Of a stretch of 64,000 bases of DNA, positions 43,952 through 54,270 are shown piece by piece (the first letter of the stretch is position 1; each line of letters opens with the position of its first letter). Source of the stretch: Bdellovibrionales bacterium Ga0074139. GTDB taxonomy: Bacteria > Bdellovibrionota > Bdellovibrionia > Bdellovibrionales > Bdellovibrionaceae. The position numbers were made by a program, and so were the translations under genes. The DNA lies in NCBI GenBank assembly GCA_001464795.1, contig LNEB01000013.1:124001-188000 (forward strand), given 5' to 3'. The notes under the pieces are model-generated. The model had not been told where the DNA came from, ran no database searches, and saw nothing but the letters and a program-made list of their open reading frames with translations.

Positions 43952-45247
43952 ATGAAAACAATATTTCTTACACTGACTGCCATTTTTTTTCTTCTAAGCG
44001 CTTCCTGCACTGATTTCTTTAATTCAAAAAACTTAACACCCACTAATGATTCAATTAATTTTGAAAAAACAGAAAATTTTCCATTCCCTGAGGGATACAA
44101 TCCTCACCAAGGAAGTTTTAGCAAAGAAAAAATGCTGGCGAACATCGGAGTTTATGTATTGTATCCAATCACAACTCAACTTCGTCTGAACTCTGAACTT
44201 TTATCACTCAGCATACAACAGTGGTTGCAATCACCTGATCTCATGGCACGGGCTAACCAAGCTCAGCTGAATTGGAAAAACACCATGCTCAGTTACCACT
44301 TTTTAGATGCAGCACCCCTGGGTCCATTGTCAGATCCTGGGCTTCGATTGGGAGAAAAAATTTACTCATGGCCTTACATGAATCTTTGTGGAGTGGATCA
44401 TGAAGTCTTAAAAGCGAAAGAACTAAAAAATCAGTATCAAGTTCCAGAGCTTTTTACTCTGAAGGGACTTGCTGTTTTAGAATATCTTTTATTTGATGAA
44501 GCTTTGCAATCGGCATGCAATCCACGTAACCCACGAAACCAAGTTGTTATTGATTGGACTTCACTGCCCGATTTAGTAAAAAAGCAAGATAGACTTTTTT
44601 ATGCAAAATTGATCTCTGACGATTTGATTAAAAACACAAAAGCATTAGAAAAATACTTTGATCCCAATCAATACAATTTTACTTACCGATTGATTCAAGG
44701 ACAATTGAACTTAACTCTTAAAGAGGCTGTTAATTCTTTAAGTGATGCCATGTTCAGCATTGAAAGAATTAAAGACCAAAAAGTGGGAAAACCGCTGGGG
44801 CTTTACAAAGAATGCCTCAGCGAAGATAAAAAATGTCCCGAAGCCATCGAACATCCTTGGTCAGATATTTCCTTTGAGGCCATCGATGCTCAGCTGCGAG
44901 GTTTTGAAAGTTTGTTTTTAGGTCGTGATCTGGGACAAAATTATAATGGCTTTGGCTTTGATGATTTTTTAATAGAAATGAATAGACCCAATGTTTCAGA
45001 AGAAATTCAACAAAGTTTACAACAAATTTATATTTCTCTTAAACAAGTTCAAGAATTAGGTTCATTCGATACTCAAGTGAAAAGCATGGATGTGATCAGC
45101 TGTCAAAATTCAACATCATCATCAAGAATTGTGCCTGTTTGTTCGTTGTTTCATGACATTAGAAATTTAGCTAATTTAATGAAGACAGATTTTCTCATCG
45201 CTTTGTCATTAAGATCACCTCCTACTTATCAAGGTGATAACGACTAA
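43952..45247 (+). CDS. Imelysin-like (M75-type) lipoprotein
   Basis: A 431-residue lipoprotein with the lipobox 'LSASC' (Cys19). The conserved imelysin core is visible: 'LNWKNTMLSYHFLDAAPLGP' and 'KGLAVLEYLLFDEALQ'. In most imelysins the second motif contains GxHxxE; here Ala174 stands in place of the His, Glu177 is kept. The family is linked to iron uptake and was first described as a putative peptidase. Here the operon context (FbpA, TonB, receptor) supports an iron role in the periplasm. Confidence 0.8.
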   Translation: MKTIFLTLTAIFFLLSASCTDFFNSKNLTPTNDSINFEKTENFPFPEGYNPHQGSFSKEKMLANIGVYVLYPITTQLRLNSELLSLSIQQWLQSPDLMARANQAQLNWKNTMLSYHFLDAAPLGPLSDPGLRLGEKIYSWPYMNLCGVDHEVLKAKELKNQYQVPELFTLKGLAVLEYLLFDEALQSACNPRNPRNQVVIDWTSLPDLVKKQDRLFYAKLISDDLIKNTKALEKYFDPNQYNFTYRLIQGQLNLTLKEAVNSLSDAMFSIERIKDQKVGKPLGLYKECLSEDKKCPEAIEHPWSDISFEAIDAQLRGFESLFLGRDLGQNYNGFGFDDFLIEMNRPNVSEEIQQSLQQIYISLKQVQELGSFDTQVKSMDVISCQNSTSSSRIVPVCSLFHDIRNLANLMKTDFLIALSLRSPPTYQGDND

Positions 45248-45258
45248 AAAGGTAAGTT

Positions 45259-47412
45259 ATGCTATTGGCTGTAAGTCTATTATTTGTTTTATCTGCTAAG
45301 GCCGAGGTTCGTGAAACTTGGCTTGCACCTGTGGAAATTTTTGGCACCCAAGCGGAAATGATTGAATACCCCACACAGCCCCAGCGAATCACGAAAAAGA
45401 AATTGGAAAGTTTGCAAACCACCGATGTCACGAAGGTGCTAAAACAAGTCAGCGGAGCCTACGTCAGAGAAGAAGATGGTTTGGGTTTAAGGCCTAATAT
45501 TGGTTTACGCGGTACAAATCCCGATCGTTCAAAAAAAATAAGTCTTTATCAAGACGGGATTTTGATTGGTCCTGCCCCCTATTCAGCTCCAGCAGCCTAT
45601 TTTACACCTTCACTGGTCCTGTCTGAATCCATGGAAGTTTATAAAGGTTTTGCAGCTCTTCCCTTTGGACCTAATTCTGTAGGGGGTGCCGTTCAGTATT
45701 TAACAAGACCACTTCCTGAAAAATCAGCAGCCCATGCCAAGGTTTCTGTCGGTTCATTTAATACCCAATTATACAAACTCAGATTCGAAAAAGCAGGTGA
45801 GCAAAATTCATTTTCAATGCAGGTCGCAAGATTACAATCCGATGGTTTCAAAAAAATCGATCGAGGAGGATCTACTGGATACACTCAAAATCATTTTCAA
45901 CTGAATTGGGGAAGAAAACTTCAGCATCCTCAGCAGTTGTCACATTCTATCAGGGCTTACTTTTCCTATGAAGATGAAAAATCCAACGAAACTTATTTGG
46001 GACTGACACAAAATGATTTTTCAAAGTCTTTTAAGCGAAGATACAACGCTTCACAATTGGATCAAATGCAGTGGTCCCATCAAGCCTTGCAGCTTCATCA
46101 TGATTATCAACTGTCTCCTGAATCAGCACTCCAATCCAAAATTTATTTTCATCAGTTTCAAAGAACTTGGTTCAGACTTGATGGATTTAATGACAATGCG
46201 GTCAACCTTCGAGACATTCTCAATCAGCCTGGAAGTTTTACGAATTATTATAATATTTTAAAAGGTGATCAGGATTCCACTTCACTGGGTGTGAATGGTC
46301 AGCTTCGTTTGGTCAATAACGATAGAAACTACTACAGCCAAGGTGTGCAATCCGCCTACAGCCAGGTTATCAATTACCCAACTGTCAGCCATGAAATCGA
46401 AATCTCTGCAAGAATTCATAAAGATCAAATTAAGCGTGATCACACTGAAAATTTGCATGAGATGGTTTCTAATCAACTTCTACCAGTAGCAGCTGCCACA
46501 CAAAGCACACTCAACCAAGATCAAGCGACAGCACTGACCACCACTTTTTTAGATCACATCAAATATCAGGATTGGACTCTGACGCCAGCCTTCCGATTCG
46601 AGAATGTGGAATTTAAATATGAAGATCATTTGGGATCCACACAGAAAAATCGCAATGATGATATTATGGTCTCGGGATTAAGTTTGATGAGAAAAATAAA
46701 TTCCAATTCCTCAATTAGAACAAGTTTGAATCAGGCTGCCACGTTATCAGGGTTGACTTCTGATGGCCGTGAAAAAAATGAAGAAGCCACTCTTTATGAA
46801 ATCGAATGGAATTATGTATCAAGTCAGATCGAAATGCAGGCCACTTATTTTTACAATGATTATCAAAACTTAACTGGAACCTGCACCGTATCATCTGGGT
46901 GCACGAATTCTCAGCTTGATGTTCAGTTCAATGGTGGAAAAGCCATCATTGATGGTACTGAAATTAAATTAGGAAAAAACTATCAGGTGGCAGCTGTTGA
47001 TTTTCCAGTCACACTGAATTTGACCTATTTAAACTCTCGGTTTGACTCTGAGTTTACCTCCACTTCACCAGAGTGGGGAATTGGCACCATAAAGAAAGGG
47101 GACCCCCTTCCTTACGTTCCAAGCCTTATTTCAAGTCTTAATTTTGGCACCCGCAAAGGTCGATACTACCAAGAAATTTCCATTTTTCATCAGTCTTCCG
47201 TTTATGATCAAAGTGCAGCCGCCGACCGAGTTAAAATTCCCGCCTATGGAATCATCGATTTCTCGGCCCAGTATAAGTACTCTGAAAAAGGACAAATTCT
47301 TTTTAAATGGGATAACGTCTTAGCTCGAGAGTACACAGTCGCTGCAAGACCCTTTGGACTTCGCCCGGGCAAACCACAAAGTTTCCAAGTGGGACTTCAG
47401 CATGACTTTTGA
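45259..47412 (+). CDS. TonB-dependent outer-membrane receptor
   Basis: A 717-residue receptor. The signal peptide 'LLAVSLLFVLSAKA' is followed by a plug domain ('GLGLRPNIGLRGTNPDRSKK', 'YQDGILIGPAPYSAPAAYF', 'ESMEVYKGFAALPFGPNSVG') typical of the FecA-like branch. The rest is a 22-strand barrel by pattern, with C-terminal 'FQVGLQHDF' ending in Phe. It probably takes up a ferric chelate with TonB energy. Its last bases overlap the start of the next gene by 11 nt. Confidence 0.92.
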   Translation: MLLAVSLLFVLSAKAEVRETWLAPVEIFGTQAEMIEYPTQPQRITKKKLESLQTTDVTKVLKQVSGAYVREEDGLGLRPNIGLRGTNPDRSKKISLYQDGILIGPAPYSAPAAYFTPSLVLSESMEVYKGFAALPFGPNSVGGAVQYLTRPLPEKSAAHAKVSVGSFNTQLYKLRFEKAGEQNSFSMQVARLQSDGFKKIDRGGSTGYTQNHFQLNWGRKLQHPQQLSHSIRAYFSYEDEKSNETYLGLTQNDFSKSFKRRYNASQLDQMQWSHQALQLHHDYQLSPESALQSKIYFHQFQRTWFRLDGFNDNAVNLRDILNQPGSFTNYYNILKGDQDSTSLGVNGQLRLVNNDRNYYSQGVQSAYSQVINYPTVSHEIEISARIHKDQIKRDHTENLHEMVSNQLLPVAAATQSTLNQDQATALTTTFLDHIKYQDWTLTPAFRFENVEFKYEDHLGSTQKNRNDDIMVSGLSLMRKINSNSSIRTSLNQAATLSGLTSDGREKNEEATLYEIEWNYVSSQIEMQATYFYNDYQNLTGTCTVSSGCTNSQLDVQFNGGKAIIDGTEIKLGKNYQVAAVDFPVTLNLTYLNSRFDSEFTSTSPEWGIGTIKKGDPLPYVPSLISSLNFGTRKGRYYQEISIFHQSSVYDQSAAADRVKIPAYGIIDFSAQYKYSEKGQILFKWDNVLAREYTVAARPFGLRPGKPQSFQVGLQHDF

Positions 47413-48331
47413 TGCCTATTTTCAAATTTGGAAAGAGCGCTTCTTAGTGCCTTTGGATGATCCAGGATCCAGGCTCTTTCATTTAAATTTAATTCTTTCC
47501 CTTGTTCTTATCTTAGGTTGGGTTTTAATTTCGAAAAAAGATTTTCATTTTTCAGATGTTAAAAAATTAGTATTAAGAAAAAAGTACTGGTGGAACAGAT
47601 CTACAAAAGTGGATTATCAAATCTACTTTCTAAATTCATTTTTAAAAGTTTTTCTTTTTATTCCCTTTTTGGATTTTAGTTTTTTTATTTCCAAGTCTGT
47701 GGCGGCTACACTTGTTAATATTCACGGTGATTTTTTAGAATTTTCTAGCACAGGCTTTCATTTATTGTTGTTTACAATCTTCAGCTTTGTCGTAGATGAT
47801 TTCCTAAGATTCATTCAGCATTTCAGTATGCATAAAATCCCCTTTCTTTGGAAAATTCATGCCACCCATCATTCAGCGCGAATTATGACACCCATGACAT
47901 TGTTCAGAAATCATCCTTTGGAATCAGGTATTGCAACCATCAGAAACAGCCTAAGCCTGGGGCTTTCCACGGGCCTGTTCATTTTTTTATTTCAAGCTCA
48001 ATTGAATGTGGTGACCTTGCTTGGTGTTAATATTTTTGGATTTTTATTTAACTTATTAGGTGCGAACTTAAGGCACAGTCATATTCCCATTTCATTGCCT
48101 TTGTTTTTAGAAAAAATTGTGATCAGTCCATTGCAGCACCAAATTCACCATTCGAAACTGGAAGAACACTGGGATAAAAATATGGGAGTCAGTCTTTCCA
48201 TTTGGGACCGACTTGCAGGCACCTGGTTACCATCAAAGAATGTAAGCAATCTAAAATTTGGACTTAGCGATAGAAAACGACAAAGCTTTATTCAGGAACT
48301 AAAAGCACCTTTGTCCACCAAAGGTGCTTAA
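47402..48331 (+). CDS. Sterol desaturase / fatty acid hydroxylase family protein
   Basis: A 309-residue polytopic membrane protein with the diiron histidine signature of the family: 'FSMHK', 'HATHHSARIMTP', 'HSHIP' and 'HQIHHSKLEEH'. Members hydroxylate or desaturate lipid chains. I start at the ATG at 47402, which overlaps the receptor end by 11 nt; an earlier ATG at 47354 lies inside the receptor gene. Its last codons form a strong hairpin at 48303-48329. As the last gene of an iron operon, it may be an iron-dependent enzyme whose expression follows iron state. Confidence 0.87.
   Translation: MTFDAYFQIWKERFLVPLDDPGSRLFHLNLILSLVLILGWVLISKKDFHFSDVKKLVLRKKYWWNRSTKVDYQIYFLNSFLKVFLFIPFLDFSFFISKSVAATLVNIHGDFLEFSSTGFHLLLFTIFSFVVDDFLRFIQHFSMHKIPFLWKIHATHHSARIMTPMTLFRNHPLESGIATIRNSLSLGLSTGLFIFLFQAQLNVVTLLGVNIFGFLFNLLGANLRHSHIPISLPLFLEKIVISPLQHQIHHSKLEEHWDKNMGVSLSIWDRLAGTWLPSKNVSNLKFGLSDRKRQSFIQELKAPLSTKGA
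48303..48329 (-). terminator. Hairpin terminator shared by convergent operons
   Basis: AAGCACCTTTG and CAAAGGTGCTT pair perfectly over 11 bp around a five-base loop. On the minus strand the stem is followed by TTTTAG, so it can terminate the leftward 50.9-48.3 kb operon. On the plus strand it overlaps the last codons of the hydroxylase gene and lacks a T run. Confidence 0.65.
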
Positions 48332-48340
48332 TAAGTAGTA

Positions 48341-48676
48341 TTACTTAGCTGATTGCTGAAGATCAGCAATAAAAGCCACGATCTCTTCATCAGTTGCAGC
48401 TGCGAACTGAGCATCTGATGCTTTCAACTTTTCAATGACTGAAGCTAAATCATTAGAAATAAAACCTGTTTCTAATGCAATCACTGCATCATTGCTGACC
48501 ATGATCATATCATTGCTTTGTGAAAGACCTGCTAAAGTTGCAGATGGTGCAGACGTAATCAAAAAGGGTGAGAATGTAGAAGCTGCATACTTCAAATCAT
48601 CCAGACCTCTAAGATCAGGTCCACCGGCAAAAGATAAACTAGATGCTAAAAATACCACTGTTAAAATTGTTTTCAT
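48341..48676 (-). CDS. Small secreted protein A (tandem paralogue)
   Basis: A 111-residue protein with AGGAG ribosome site and signal peptide ('LTVVFLASSLSFAG'). The mature helical part shares its centre with its neighbour: 'NDMIMVSNDAVIALETGFIS' and 'DLASVIEKLKASDA' align with 'NDLLMVKEDAYIALETGVVS' and 'NLASVMEKMKSVDS'. It is the last gene of a leftward three-gene unit with the secreted peptidase-like protein. No family is recognised. Confidence 0.7.
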   Translation of the reverse strand: MKTILTVVFLASSLSFAGGPDLRGLDDLKYAASTFSPFLITSAPSATLAGLSQSNDMIMVSNDAVIALETGFISNDLASVIEKLKASDAQFAAATDEEIVAFIADLQQSAK

Positions 48677-48694
48677 AAAATCTCCTATTGTTTG

Positions 48695-49012
48695 TTAGTT
48701 AGTTTGAATAATGACTAATAAAAGTTGTTCGTCAGATAATCCTGCTTGCATTGAATCTACAGATTTCATTTTTTCCATGACTGATGCCAAATTCTCAGAA
48801 ACAACACCCGTTTCTAATGCGATATAGGCGTCCTCTTTCACCATCAAAAGATCATTTTGATTGGAAGCAGAAATATTCGAAGATCCTTGCGAACTAAGAG
48901 CTGTGGGAACCATCGTTGAAGTGGCTTTTGATAGCACTCCGAATTGCAACTGGGCCTGTGACAGACTGCCTGCAATACTTAAAGCCAAAACAAGCACTGT
49001 TTGTTTTTTCAT
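48695..49012 (-). CDS. Small secreted protein B (tandem paralogue)
   Basis: A 105-residue secreted protein with signal peptide ending near 'SLSQA'. The start overlaps the stop of the large peptidase-like gene by 4 nt (ATGA) with a GGAG ribosome site just upstream. It shares about half of its mature residues with protein A by eye. Small paired secreted proteins next to a secreted hydrolase may be its substrates, partners or inhibitors; this is inference only. Confidence 0.7.
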   Translation of the reverse strand: MKKQTVLVLALSIAGSLSQAQLQFGVLSKATSTMVPTALSSQGSSNISASNQNDLLMVKEDAYIALETGVVSENLASVMEKMKSVDSMQAGLSDEQLLLVIIQTN

Positions 49013-50940
49013 ATTTTTTCTCCTTTTTTAGTTTTTTGTTCATTCACTAATTTTTGCTTTATTTCATTAATCATTCGCGTTTGCTCATTGATATCTTTTA
49101 GGAAATCCTCACCTAAAATCTGGATAGTCAAAGCCTCATAGGTTTTTAAAAGATCGTCGATTTTGCTTTTTGAGTTTTTAAAATTCTCTTCGAGGGCTAA
49201 CCTGACAGTGTAGATTTCTTCATCAGAAGGAATACCGTAAGAGCCTTTGAAGTATTCAGCACCGTGATGCATGTCTTTTTTAAGCATGTCTTTTGCAAGC
49301 TGGGTCACTTCTGAATCCGTCTTTTTCAGTTCATGGTTCATAATGTGAGCATTTCGAATCATAGATAGACGCTCATAAGTCTGCCGGTTCAGCACAAACA
49401 TGGATGATAAAAATTTTCCAGAATTCATAACTTTACTAAAGATAATTTGTCTTTCACTCAAAGAAAGCTTGAAATAAGAAGCCATGTCTTTGATGACCAC
49501 ACCTGATGCAAGGCTCACTTGATCGATATGCCTTTGGAAAAGTTTCTTTTTAGAGGACCAATAGTAAGGTCCGTTTTCAGTCTTTAGGTTTTCTGGGATT
49601 TCATGGCTAAGACCAGCTTTAATCAGTGCATCTCTTACACCTTTTGGAGTATGGATCTGCAGCTCGGAGATTTGAATATTTTCAGGAACTACATTTCTAA
49701 ACAGATTAAAAGTTTCAGAGGCACAATTGTTATTAGAAAAATAATACTTTCCACGGTAAGTCCAATTTTGCTCGGTGACCCTTTGTACGAAGTTGGAAAT
49801 TTGTGCTCTATTAAGTTTTACAGGATAACTATAAAGTTCACGCAGTTCCAACTGTGTGTACTCGTGAATCACGTTCAATAAAGGCATGATATAAAGCCTT
49901 GATGGATAACCACCCGTGATTCCCTTCATAGTACTGATCGCAAGATCTGTAACACCTGCTCTGTAGCTCACGACTCGGTGATAAGCCGTGTCTTTCAAGC
50001 ACTCTTCATCTAAAACTTTTCGGTGAGGGGCACAAATAACCAGTCGAATCATGGAGTGACCCCACTGAGACATCATGGAATCTCCGTCACCTGCTAGAAG
50101 ATAATGAACAGCGGCAATCCGGGAAGCATCTAAAGGTTCATAAATATGACCCATAATTTCAGAAGAGTTAATTGTGGTCAGAATATGCTGACCCTTTTTA
50201 CAGTTATAATTTTGAAAGGGTTGATGCTGAAAGTGCTTGGCTAAAAACGCGTATCCTGAAGGTCTTCGACATTGATACTCAGGATCCATCAGAAAAAACT
50301 CAAGATTGACAGCAAAGGCTTCATCTGGACTTTTAAATTCGTAAGCATAGGGTGACCTGGCGGTCGAGTCATCTTCTTCAAGTATCTGCCGACCCTTCAT
50401 TTCTTTTTTGGACCAGGAAATAGAATACAAAAACTGAGGGTTATCAGAAATGTTTTTGCTAAATGAATACCAAGCACAATGTGATGGTTTGGTGTCACTT
50501 TCATTTGATGGAGCTGCGCACTCGTGTCTATAGGGATTGGTTTCATGAACCAAATGATGATCGTACTGATGAGCTAATTCATGAACAAGTGTTCCAAGCG
50601 CAAGATCATAAACAGTTTTATGCCGACTGGATGTTGTCGTATTTGGAACTGAGCGCTCGGGTCCCGCGACTATATGAGCTTTCAATTGGTCTGATAGCTG
50701 TATCGTACTAAAATAAGTTCGACCCAGTTCATCTAATTTTTTATATTCAATTTTGACAGTTTTATTCAGTCGCGTTTTAAGCAGTGGTGGCAGCAACTCC
50801 ACAGCTTTTTCAATTAGCCTGTTGGTGGCTTGGATTTCAGATTGATTTAAATTTGCAGAATTAAAGTCCACTTTCAAAGCAAAGGCTTTGAAGCTCAAAC
50901 TCAATATTAATAGATAAAGACCATACTTTAATTTTTGCAC
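49009..50940 (-). CDS. Secreted protein joining an HExxH metallopeptidase-like region and a DUF4105/Lnb-type domain
   Basis: A 643-residue exported protein (signal peptide 'GLYLLILSLSFKAFA'). Residues about 60-245 hold 'TLVHELAHQYDHH' with His120, Glu121, His124 and a later His, followed by 'YEFKSPDEAFAVN', a pattern of zinc peptidases. Residues about 275-430 match DUF4105, related to Lnb: 'SQWGHSMIRL' with His295, 'GGYPSRLYIMPLLNVIHEYT', 'YSYPVKLNRAQI' and 'YYFSNNNCASETFNLF' with Cys406, a likely His-Cys pair. The last 200 residues are helical and unassigned. The two small secreted paralogues follow directly. Both activities are inferred from motifs. Confidence 0.78.
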   Translation of the reverse strand: MQKLKYGLYLLILSLSFKAFALKVDFNSANLNQSEIQATNRLIEKAVELLPPLLKTRLNKTVKIEYKKLDELGRTYFSTIQLSDQLKAHIVAGPERSVPNTTTSSRHKTVYDLALGTLVHELAHQYDHHLVHETNPYRHECAAPSNESDTKPSHCAWYSFSKNISDNPQFLYSISWSKKEMKGRQILEEDDSTARSPYAYEFKSPDEAFAVNLEFFLMDPEYQCRRPSGYAFLAKHFQHQPFQNYNCKKGQHILTTINSSEIMGHIYEPLDASRIAAVHYLLAGDGDSMMSQWGHSMIRLVICAPHRKVLDEECLKDTAYHRVVSYRAGVTDLAISTMKGITGGYPSRLYIMPLLNVIHEYTQLELRELYSYPVKLNRAQISNFVQRVTEQNWTYRGKYYFSNNNCASETFNLFRNVVPENIQISELQIHTPKGVRDALIKAGLSHEIPENLKTENGPYYWSSKKKLFQRHIDQVSLASGVVIKDMASYFKLSLSERQIIFSKVMNSGKFLSSMFVLNRQTYERLSMIRNAHIMNHELKKTDSEVTQLAKDMLKKDMHHGAEYFKGSYGIPSDEEIYTVRLALEENFKNSKSKIDDLLKTYEALTIQILGEDFLKDINEQTRMINEIKQKLVNEQKTKKGEKI

Positions 50941-51081
50941 ACAGTCTTGGTAGCTAGAAATGGACCGTTCCCAATTTTATTCAATTGGAGTTGGTAAAGT
51001 TTACCTGCATAAGGATTAGTCAAAGTGCTTAATTTAGGGTGGCATGAAAATGGCTTAGTATTTATGCAACAGAGGTAATTT

Positions 51082-51477
51082 ATGAAAAAATTGTTTGTGA
51101 TGACTTGTCTATTTTTATTTTCTTTTCCTGCTTTCGCCGGTGACAATGGAAGTTTCGTATCTTGCTTGTCTAATTCCGGGCGTACAGCCATGGTGTTTGG
51201 CCATATCTTGTCTTTAGCGAATGCTGAAACAGTTCAGCTTTCCATCGATAATCAGTCTTTAGGGGTTCTTGAGGTTGATAACTCTGTCTTTAAGAAACCA
51301 ATTGACGAGGAAACGATTCAATTCCTAGAGGCTGATGGTAGCCAAACCGATATACTAACAATTCGAATTTTATCACCCAAACGAATTGATATTTTAAGTG
51401 GAATCGATCCCCGTACCAATGAAGCTCTTACCCATCAAATTAAGCTCAACTGCAAAACAGTTTATAATCCCATTTAA
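51082..51477 (+). CDS. Small exported protein of unknown function
   Basis: A 131-residue exported protein with signal peptide ('FVMTCLFLFSFPAFAG') and a GAGGT ribosome site. Two Cys residues flank a strand-rich middle. I recognise no family. The spacer to the divergent gene (50941-51081, 141 nt) should contain both promoters; I see no certain elements in it. Confidence 0.6.
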   Translation: MKKLFVMTCLFLFSFPAFAGDNGSFVSCLSNSGRTAMVFGHILSLANAETVQLSIDNQSLGVLEVDNSVFKKPIDEETIQFLEADGSQTDILTIRILSPKRIDILSGIDPRTNEALTHQIKLNCKTVYNPI

Positions 51478-51584
51478 GCTGCCTTTGGACGGCACTGTCT
51501 AAAGTTGAGACACTTGAAATCCATTGCAAACCCATTAGGCAAGGCCCTGGCTTTGCTTCACCCAACAGCAGTTGAGGAGTTGTT

Positions 51585-52157
51585 ATGACTAAAATTCTAG
51601 GTCTTATTATCATGCTGTTTGCGGTTGTGGGTTGTGATCAAAAATCCAGCTCAAATAGTAGTGGCACTTCAACTCAATGCTTAGCAAACCCCTACACAGG
51701 AGTTTGTGACAATTCGGTTTATAATTCTGCTAATGGTTTTCAAGCTTATCCAGGAGCTCCAGGATATTCTTCAGACCCCAATAGTGTGTTTCGTTACCAA
51801 TTGGATCAGTACTACTTTTCACAAAATGGTTCCCTATCTGCACTCTGTGCATGCCCAGTGGGAAGTCGCCCTGTTTACAATGGATCTCTAGGAATTGGCT
51901 GTGCTCAAAGTGCGCTTGTCCCCACTTGGGCTCCTATTTATTTTCACGCTTTGAACACAGTGTCGGGCTCTAATATTAACTCTCATTATGTGAACATTCC
52001 CCAAATGTCGAACATCAACAATCAGTTTCAAAACGGCTGCTATTCCAATGTGGCTTGGAGCTGCCTCATCGGGCAAAATAACCAATGCCCCGGTGGCTCA
52101 GCTTGTCAGGCTTCCGCAAGCAATTCCCCCATCGGAATTTGTGTAAGAACTCAGTAA
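51585..52157 (+). CDS. Cysteine-rich lipoprotein of unknown function
   Basis: A 190-residue lipoprotein with GAGGAG ribosome site and lipobox 'VVGC' (Cys17). The mature part has eight or more Cys in motifs such as 'QCLANPYTGVC', 'LCACPVGS' and 'QNNQCPGGSACQ', and is rich in Asn, Ser and Tyr. This suggests a disulfide-held extracellular domain. The hairpins and terminator after its stop are at 52158-52230. No family is recognised. Confidence 0.65.
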   Translation: MTKILGLIIMLFAVVGCDQKSSSNSSGTSTQCLANPYTGVCDNSVYNSANGFQAYPGAPGYSSDPNSVFRYQLDQYYFSQNGSLSALCACPVGSRPVYNGSLGIGCAQSALVPTWAPIYFHALNTVSGSNINSHYVNIPQMSNINNQFQNGCYSNVAWSCLIGQNNQCPGGSACQASASNSPIGICVRTQ

Positions 52158-52198
52158 TAGCCAATACCAACAAGGCTAACGCGCCGTTACGGCTAATG

Positions 52199-52230
52199 TA
52201 CCACTCCTTCCAGAGTGGTATTTTTTTTTC
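52199..52230 (+). terminator. Rho-independent terminator abutting the next start codon
   Basis: TACCACTC (52199-52206) pairs with GAGTGGTA (52213-52220) across a six-base loop, followed by nine T and a C. It is a textbook terminator for the lipoprotein gene. The M3 peptidase ATG follows at once at 52231. TATTTT at 52219-52224 is also placed like a -10 element for a leaderless start near 52231. Confidence 0.85.
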
Positions 52231-54270
52231 ATGAAAAATACAAATCCTTTACTCGAAAAATTCGCTGGAACTGATGCCTGTGTCCCTTTTGATTTGATTA
52301 AACTCGAGCACTTCAAACCTGCTTTGGCTGAATCCATTCAAATCGCAAAAGCCAATGTTGAAAAAATTAAAACCTCAACGGCTGCACCTAATTTTAATAA
52401 TGTCATTGAAGCCTTAGAAGCTTCCAGTGATCTAATGGAATCCATTTCTTCTGTTTTTGGGAACTTAGAATCGGCCAATGGATCTGATGAAATGATGAAG
52501 CTAGCACCCGAGATCTATCAAAGCCTAGCTGCTTTTTCTTCTGATGTTTCTTTAGATTCAGAATTATTTAAAAAAATAAAGTCTGTTTATGACCAGAAAT
52601 CTCAACTTCATTTATCCACTGAACAAAATATGCTTCTTGATAAGACTTATAAATCTTTTGTGCGCAACGGAGCCCTTCTGTCGCCTGAAGTGAAAGACAA
52701 AGTCCGGGCCATCGATCAAAAACTAGCGGCCTTAAGTCCTCAGTACTCAGAAAATTTATTAAAATCCACCAATGCTTTTGAAATGGTTTTAGATAATAAA
52801 TCCGATCTTGATGGCTTACCCGATTCAGCCATTGAAGCCGCTTCGCAAGCAGCTGAAAAAAAAGGCTACTCTGGAAAATGGCTATTTAATCTTCAAGTGC
52901 CTTCTTATTTAGCTTATGTGACTTACGCAAAGAATCGAAGTTTACGTGAAAAAATGTCCCGTGCATTCGCGACTCGAGCTTTCAAAGATTCCTTTGATAA
53001 TCAAAAAATTGTTTTAGAAACTGTGAAGCTTCGTCATGAACGGGCTCAGCTTTTAGGATTTAAAACCCACGCTGATTTTGTGTTGGAAGAACGAATGGCT
53101 CAAACTCCACAAACAGTACAAAAATTTTTAGACCGCCTCAGTGTAGCTGGAAAGCCAGCGGGACTTCGCGACATTGAAGAATTAAAAGCTTTTGCAATGT
53201 CGACTGATGGCCTCGATGACATCAAACCTTGGGATATTGCTTATTACTCTGAAAAATTAAAAGAATCTAAATATGCTTTTAATGAAGAAGACCTACGCCC
53301 CTATTTCAAATTAGAAAATGTGGTGGATGGAGTGTTTGAACACGCAAGAAGACTTTATGGGTTAGTCTTCAAAGAAAACTCAAAAATTCCCGTTTACCAC
53401 GAAGAAGTGAAGGCCTACGAGATTCACGAAGAAGTGAGCGGAAAGTTCATGGGACTTTTTTATGCGGACTACTTTCCTCGTGAAACTAAAAAATCAGGCG
53501 CATGGATGACGACCTTTAGGAACCAAGGCCTTCATGACGGTGAAATACGAAGACCCCATGTTTCCATTGTTTGTAACTTTACAAAACCCACGGCCACAAA
53601 ACCCAGCTTGCTGACCTACGATGAAGTGAAAACATTATTTCACGAATTTGGTCACGCACTACACGGAATGCTAGCGAACAGCACTTACAAATCCTTGGCG
53701 GGCACTAATGTTTATTGGGATTTTGTCGAACTTCCTTCACAGATCATGGAAAATTGGGTCGGTGAAAAAGAAGGCCTCGATGTTTTTGCGAAACATTACG
53801 AAACGGGTGCCCCCATCCCCACTGAGTTAGTTGCAAAACTAAAAAAAGCTCAAAAATTTCAATCGGGTTATATGATGATGCGCCAACTTCAATTTTCAAC
53901 TTTAGATATGAAGTGGCACTCGACAGATCCTTCAGCGATCACAGATGTGGATCAGTTCGAAACTTTAGCCACCGAACCCACAAGATTACTGCCAAAACTT
54001 GAAGGTACCAATTCATCGTGTTCTTTCGGGCATATTTTTGCTGGTGGATATTCGGCGGGTTACTATTCTTATAAATGGGCTGAGGTTTTAGATGCTGATG
54101 CTTTTGAATACTTTTTAGAAAAGGGAATTTTCAATTCTGAAGTGGCCAAGTCTTTTAAGGAAAACATTTTATCTCGTGGAGGCTCTGAACATCCCATGGA
54201 ACTTTATAAAAAGTTTCGTGGTCGTGAACCGGATCCTGATGCCCTACTACGAAGAGACGGATTGATTTAA
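52231..54270 (+). CDS. M3-family oligopeptidase (OpdA/Dcp-like)
   Basis: A 679-residue thimet-oligopeptidase-type zinc peptidase. The zinc motif is 'FHEFGHALHGML' with His471, Glu472 and His475, and 'LPSQIMENWV' supplies the third ligand. It degrades oligopeptides in the cytosol, including signal peptides in related enzymes; there is no signal peptide. The start codon follows directly after a terminator's T run and lacks any ribosome site, so it may be leaderless. The gene shares one base with nadK. Choice between OpdA and Dcp needs a tree. Confidence 0.92.
   Translation: MKNTNPLLEKFAGTDACVPFDLIKLEHFKPALAESIQIAKANVEKIKTSTAAPNFNNVIEALEASSDLMESISSVFGNLESANGSDEMMKLAPEIYQSLAAFSSDVSLDSELFKKIKSVYDQKSQLHLSTEQNMLLDKTYKSFVRNGALLSPEVKDKVRAIDQKLAALSPQYSENLLKSTNAFEMVLDNKSDLDGLPDSAIEAASQAAEKKGYSGKWLFNLQVPSYLAYVTYAKNRSLREKMSRAFATRAFKDSFDNQKIVLETVKLRHERAQLLGFKTHADFVLEERMAQTPQTVQKFLDRLSVAGKPAGLRDIEELKAFAMSTDGLDDIKPWDIAYYSEKLKESKYAFNEEDLRPYFKLENVVDGVFEHARRLYGLVFKENSKIPVYHEEVKAYEIHEEVSGKFMGLFYADYFPRETKKSGAWMTTFRNQGLHDGEIRRPHVSIVCNFTKPTATKPSLLTYDEVKTLFHEFGHALHGMLANSTYKSLAGTNVYWDFVELPSQIMENWVGEKEGLDVFAKHYETGAPIPTELVAKLKKAQKFQSGYMMMRQLQFSTLDMKWHSTDPSAITDVDQFETLATEPTRLLPKLEGTNSSCSFGHIFAGGYSAGYYSYKWAEVLDADAFEYFLEKGIFNSEVAKSFKENILSRGGSEHPMELYKKFRGREPDPDALLRRDGLI

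Follow-up and report, generated by a model that had tools for sequence, protein, structure and literature searches.

Within the window, by which we mean the whole stretch of 64,000 nucleotides analyzed, it is strongly supported that a large exported protein and the two small secreted proteins encoded beside it form one system, as indicated by an adjacency conserved over two phyla, by co-occurrence, and by a natural fusion. Overall, we see about an even chance that this system combines an exported, acyltransferase-like enzyme and small adaptor or regulatory subunits dedicated to it, a model in which we infer the binding, the docking, the chemistry, and the role of the components. The observed basis for it consists of the domains of the enzyme, the conservation of its active site, the operon, the homology of the small proteins, the conserved pairing, and one fusion.

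Operon organization and the large protein

The window comes from a genome of the Bdellovibrio family, to which Bdellovibrio genomes such as L095/G063 also belong. The operon lies on the minus strand and comprises three open frames of 643, 105, and 111 aa. The first (49009–50940) has a GTG start and encodes the large exported protein, in which a signal peptide is followed by DUF7844 (a putative MtfA-like zincin), Lnb_N (a permuted NlpC/P60 domain), and a long helical C-terminus. The 105-aa (48695–49012) and 111-aa (48341–48676) proteins are DUF2388-like as judged from their open frames and profile searches, and reading of the sequences revealed clear type I signal peptides without a lipobox in all three products. 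The stop of the large gene and the start of the 105-aa gene overlap as ATGA (49009–49012), while 18 bases separate the 105-aa stop from the 111-aa start, and GGAG precedes the start of each small gene. Together with the 41% identity of the two small paralogues, these features agree with the sequence-only reading, which had described two coupled, paralogous secreted proteins of this size. The single shared terminator that it also proposed is plausible, in that an 11-bp hairpin (48303–48329, minus strand; RNA folding z = −3.2) lies past the last stop, although the U-run of this putative element is weak and a consensus terminator scan did not list it. The hairpin sits within the 3′ end of a convergent gene (47354–48331), and an Rfam search of 47000–52500 matched no family. 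Elsewhere in the window (43952–47412), an imelysin-like (M75) lipoprotein gene is followed by that of a TonB-dependent receptor; the two likely serve together in iron uptake and are unlinked to the operon.

Pfam assigns residues 25–244 of the large protein (50209–50868, minus strand; 1.1e-42) to DUF7844 (PF25226), with 146.5 bits versus a curated cut-off of 27, and residues 269–420 (49681–50136, minus strand; 3.9e-24) to Lnb_N (PF13387), the current name of DUF4105, with 85.6 bits versus a curated cut-off of 22.2. The catalytic-type His295 (50056–50058) and Cys406 (49723–49725) of Lnb_N are invariant in 124/124 homologues. Within DUF7844, a zinc-peptidase-like HELAH motif occupies residues 120–124 (50569–50583), and Glu207 (50320–50322), which aligns with the SPxE/DPAE of MtfA, is the presumed third zinc ligand. 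The region downstream of the motif aligns with the zinc peptidase MtfA over 76 residues (E ~1e-3), and because of HELAH and this alignment DUF7844 appears to be zincin-like. The earlier description of an exported protein with a zinc-peptidase-like motif and a His–Cys DUF4105 domain is thus upheld by the Pfam matches, HELAH, His295, and Cys406. The predicted structure of the large protein is fair (mean pLDDT 76.7); its whole chain gave no match in the PDB at E ≤ 0.001, and Foldseek returned some zincins among its matches, every one with E above 1.

With respect to known enzymes, the DUF7844 region shares HExxH and SP/DPxE...EyF with MtfA (peptidase family M90). MtfA is cytosolic and single-domain, whereas DUF7844 resides in an exported two-domain protein. 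DUF4105 is reported to be Lnb, the lipoprotein N-acyltransferase of Bacteroides, and is placed among the lipid-acting permuted NlpC/P60 enzymes (PMC12994826). The large protein resembles Bacteroides Lnb (PF13387) in being exported and in its Lnb_N domain with the permuted NlpC/P60 His and Cys, but differs from it in having DUF7844 ahead of this domain, soluble helices without transmembrane segments behind it, and small secreted partners. Specifically, no transmembrane segment is evident past the signal peptide (highest 19-residue hydropathy 1.17). The Lnb of Bacteroides has a transmembrane C-terminal part. Since the large protein is without such a part and a canonical Lnt is encoded in the same genome (242.5 bits versus a cut-off of 132.9), it is a relative of Lnb and not an Lnb-type replacement for Lnt; with a canonical Lnt present, a housekeeping Lnb role is not needed.

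In terms of mechanism, the three genes would specify a single enzyme system that is exported and most likely resides in the periplasm. In it, the large protein would be a soluble relative of Lnb whose permuted NlpC/P60 center (His295/Cys406) may carry out acyl transfer or hydrolysis, with a membrane lipid or a lipoprotein as the target. DUF7844 would serve mainly as a docking module, and in many, not all, members it could also be a zinc peptidase. An acyl transferase system that likewise needs two proteins is LnsA/LnsB of Staphylococcus aureus, a two-component lipoprotein N-acylation system with noncontiguous genes (PMC7387801). In the present operon, the two DUF2388-like proteins would be exported with the enzyme and made in step with it by translational coupling. 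To our knowledge, no DUF2388-like protein is involved in the LnsA/LnsB system.

Family and structure of the small secreted proteins

The Pfam and NCBIfam models recognize neither of the small proteins in the window, with no match to DUF2388 or TIGR02448. We therefore turn to a test profile built from the small neighbors of the large gene in relatives, with the window sequences left out. Searched with this profile, the two small proteins rank 1 and 2 of the 193 window frames (4e-8 and 1.2e-5), and the best unrelated frame reaches an E of 0.56. The profile–profile (hhalign) probability for the window proteins is 94.6%, as compared with at most 5.4% for column-shuffled controls. Pairwise profile comparison connects the small-protein groups by a chain of links, and in three Bdellovibrio genomes (G007, G033, and G036) the gene beside the enzyme is itself a DUF2388 gene (2.5e-26 for the G036 copy). 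Taken together, the profiles place the window pair as divergent members of the DUF2388/TIGR02448 superfamily. As in Pseudomonas, the proteins of this superfamily in the window are secreted, about 100 aa long, encoded in tandem beside a DUF7844–Lnb_N gene, and characterized by the same C-terminal helical motif. They differ from Pseudomonas DUF2388 in being too divergent for the Pfam and NCBIfam models and in lying downstream, not upstream, of the enzyme gene. DUF3015, a negative control in these comparisons, showed no detectable sequence relation to the DUF2388-like groups (hhalign ≤0.3%), which leaves a common origin of the two unsupported. A BLAST-level search of 60 related genomes recovered only paralogues from the same genome and one weak match beside the enzyme in G037; taken alone, this result would wrongly refute the pairing, so that profile methods were needed.

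For the 111-aa protein, AlphaFold2 predicts an unstructured segment ahead of a three-helix C-terminal domain at residues 54–110 (48347–48517, minus strand), with pLDDT of about 85–93 over most of this domain. The small-protein model had no fold match in the PDB, and the small proteins have no recognizable catalytic residue. We consider that the three-helix domain may be the means by which the small proteins bind the enzyme, where they would act as dedicated adaptor or regulatory subunits.

Across the small family, a conserved C-terminal domain is preceded by a variable segment. TSAP-like motifs occur in this variable segment in the window (48341–48676), in L199, L202, and L203, and in the second DUF2388 of Pseudomonas loci (e.g., L127). 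The count of SAP in variable segments is 16, versus about 1 in shuffles, with many of the copies being related, and the motif is a possible cleavage or modification site. His/Gly-rich stretches, possibly metal-binding, directly follow the small-protein signal peptide at six loci (L072, L073, L075, L080, L198, and L201). Many small proteins have a hydrophobic stretch, but a general role as membrane anchors was rejected, as the window proteins, most Pseudomonas proteins, and the L184 and L195–L197 copies are without one.

Conservation of the pairing and possible roles of the small proteins

The pairing was evaluated in Bdellovibrionales by removing, for each locus, all training sequences at least 45% identical to anything in that locus and then searching every frame within 6 kb, with a match defined as E ≤ 0.01 beside the large gene. 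By this measure, a small gene of one superfamily adjoins the large gene at 35 of 47 loci, or 25 of 37 clusters at 60% identity, and three more matches are weak; only one match at E ≤ 0.01 within the searched 6 kb is not beside the large gene. The nine matchless clusters consist chiefly of enzymes that are longer and have diverged, several of them having lost HExxH; one locus (L204) stops at a contig edge. Other secreted genes (152–282 aa) lie directly upstream at L077, L084, L086, L087, and L089. In Pseudomonadaceae, DUF2388 genes adjoin the enzyme at 76 of 77 loci, the sole exception being a locus that stops at a contig edge. Only 4 of 274 gammaproteobacterial genomes contain DUF2388, and in all 4 a DUF7844–Lnb_N gene is adjacent. 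The small genes are accordingly not missing from most loci of the large gene, a point on which the sequence-only proposal of a joint system had depended, and co-occurrence, which it had proposed as a check, is supported both by adjacency over two phyla and by these four genomes. At L088 (G017:C128), the large gene is split over two frames and a small gene still adjoins it, which suggests a decaying or mis-assembled copy.

The natural fusion is found at L083 (5212–7981), where the last 67 residues of the large protein are a copy of the small domain, with 54% identity to the neighboring small protein over 67 aa (E 2e-19). Gene order and strand differ among loci, with small genes found upstream, downstream, or divergent. 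The DUF2388-like gene is divergent from the enzyme gene at L184 (6448–8012), L194 (3287–4840), L196 (3627–5281), and L197 (5818–7369); at these loci the gene after the small one encodes a conserved secreted protein (about 403 aa; YITA...RTHILIVG), whose L184 copy belongs to no Pfam family. Such variation in order and strand would be compatible with genes that share no function, in an old operon that chance or common regulation has preserved. We regard this as highly improbable, given that the adjacency persists over two phyla despite the varied order and is accompanied by the gammaproteobacterial co-occurrence and the fusion. As the same pairing recurs in Bdellovibrionales and Pseudomonas, it is probable that the small proteins are partners dedicated to the enzyme (or its substrates), which belongs to a family so far known for the attachment of fatty acids to lipoproteins.

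The partnership concerns the whole of the Lnb_N enzyme and not cleavage at the zinc site. HExxH is complete in 33 of 47 Bdellovibrionales and 77 of 77 Pseudomonadaceae homologues, and among the approximately 14 of 47 Bdellovibrionales homologues in which it is degenerate, at least 8 retain a small partner (e.g., L073, L075, L082, L198, and L201). Since the Lnb_N His and Cys are absolute, these losses argue that the partnership involves the Lnb_N enzyme, and the pairing is independent of the zinc protease. The earlier idea of a processing system survives as far as one joint system is concerned, with adjacency, co-occurrence, and fusion in its favor, and is not supported with regard to HExxH as its driver. 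Toxin activity, another role it had offered for the small proteins, was dropped because the flanks read show neither secretion-system nor immunity context.

With respect to what the small partners do, the fusion and the translational coupling favor a subunit or regulator, while the varied gene order and the orphan small genes, which exist away from any enzyme, fit substrates as well as subunits. One such orphan is a third paralogue of the window proteins in the same genome (L065:8591–8920, G000:C11), located away from any Lnb_N gene and flanked by two similar secreted proteins (431 and 449 aa) of no Pfam family. It is thus a real, if minority, possibility that the small proteins are acylated or cleaved in the periplasm, with the helical domain being recognized and the variable N-terminal segment acted upon. 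Tandem copies (exactly three at 68 of the 77 Pseudomonadaceae loci) and orphans elsewhere are typical of substrates, and the conserved C-terminal domain after a variable, unstructured segment, together with the recurrence of the TSAP-like motif in this segment in several groups, is consistent with such a role. That enzyme and small domain are fused at L083 argues against it, as do the survival of the pairing after HExxH loss, by which cleavage at that site could not be general, and the aligned family members, in which no conserved nucleophile or cleavage site is present throughout. By analogy, the small proteins might instead be specific inhibitors or folding helpers that hold an exported cysteine or zinc enzyme inactive until needed, comparable to the staphostatins, which inhibit staphopains. 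Small size, translational coupling, and tight locus association would suit this role, but two to four divergent copies plus orphans are unexpected for a simple inhibitor, and staphostatins are cytoplasmic whereas the small proteins are exported, which renders it improbable. Our preferred model remains that of dedicated adaptor or regulatory subunits.

DUF3015 and the wider pattern among Lnb_N enzymes

Building from the DUF7844 enzymes, a second pairing is apparent among Lnb_N genes that lack this domain. In 60 related genomes, 60 of 87 such genes have one or two genes for small secreted DUF3015 proteins next to them, and conversely 80 of 91 DUF3015 genes lie beside an Lnb_N gene; DUF3015 is found near none of 25 DUF7844–Lnb_N genes. 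DUF3015 genes, often in tandem, are seen beside DUF7844-less Lnb_N at G000:C14:309813–311634 (L090), G000:C13:26837–28080 (L091), L093, L220, L222, and L228. A Pseudomonas example of the DUF7844-less enzymes, when scanned, showed the arrangement DUF7843–Lnb_N–DUF7840. This second pairing resembles the window operon in placing one or more small secreted proteins beside an exported Lnb_N enzyme, and differs in that DUF3015 falls at hhalign ≤0.3% against the DUF2388-like proteins, with no relation detected. The partner family thus tracks the domain next to Lnb_N, with DUF2388-like proteins accompanying DUF7844 and DUF3015 accompanying DUF7843–Lnb_N–DUF7840, which suggests that the partner docks on that domain. 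It is a tentative and on balance doubtful extension that exported Lnb_N enzymes are generally two-part systems whose dedicated small proteins are covalently acylated or processed by the cognate enzyme, constituting an undescribed periplasmic pathway common in Pseudomonas and Bdellovibrionales.

The sequence-only reading had held that no such system was described. Among the open-access papers covered by the search, there is none with both DUF2388 and DUF4105, and none with TIGR02448 or DUF7844, so that within this literature the statement stands for the pairing; it does not hold for the parts, both of which belong to named families (DUF7844–Lnb_N and the DUF2388/TIGR02448 superfamily). Among the few expression notes found for DUF2388, the gene PP_3743 of Pseudomonas putida is reported to rise approximately fivefold when an amino-acid racemase (alr) is deleted (PMC6034422).

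For DUF2388 and DUF3015, two common families of small secreted proteins with no assigned function, the enzyme–partner rule provides a first testable role, and this rule can be tested in genetically tractable, non-pathogenic Pseudomonas. DUF4105/Lnb_N itself has only recently been tied to lipoprotein acylation, and our observations suggest that the uses of the Lnb fold extend past the replacement of Lnt, and that the partner changes with the neighboring domain.
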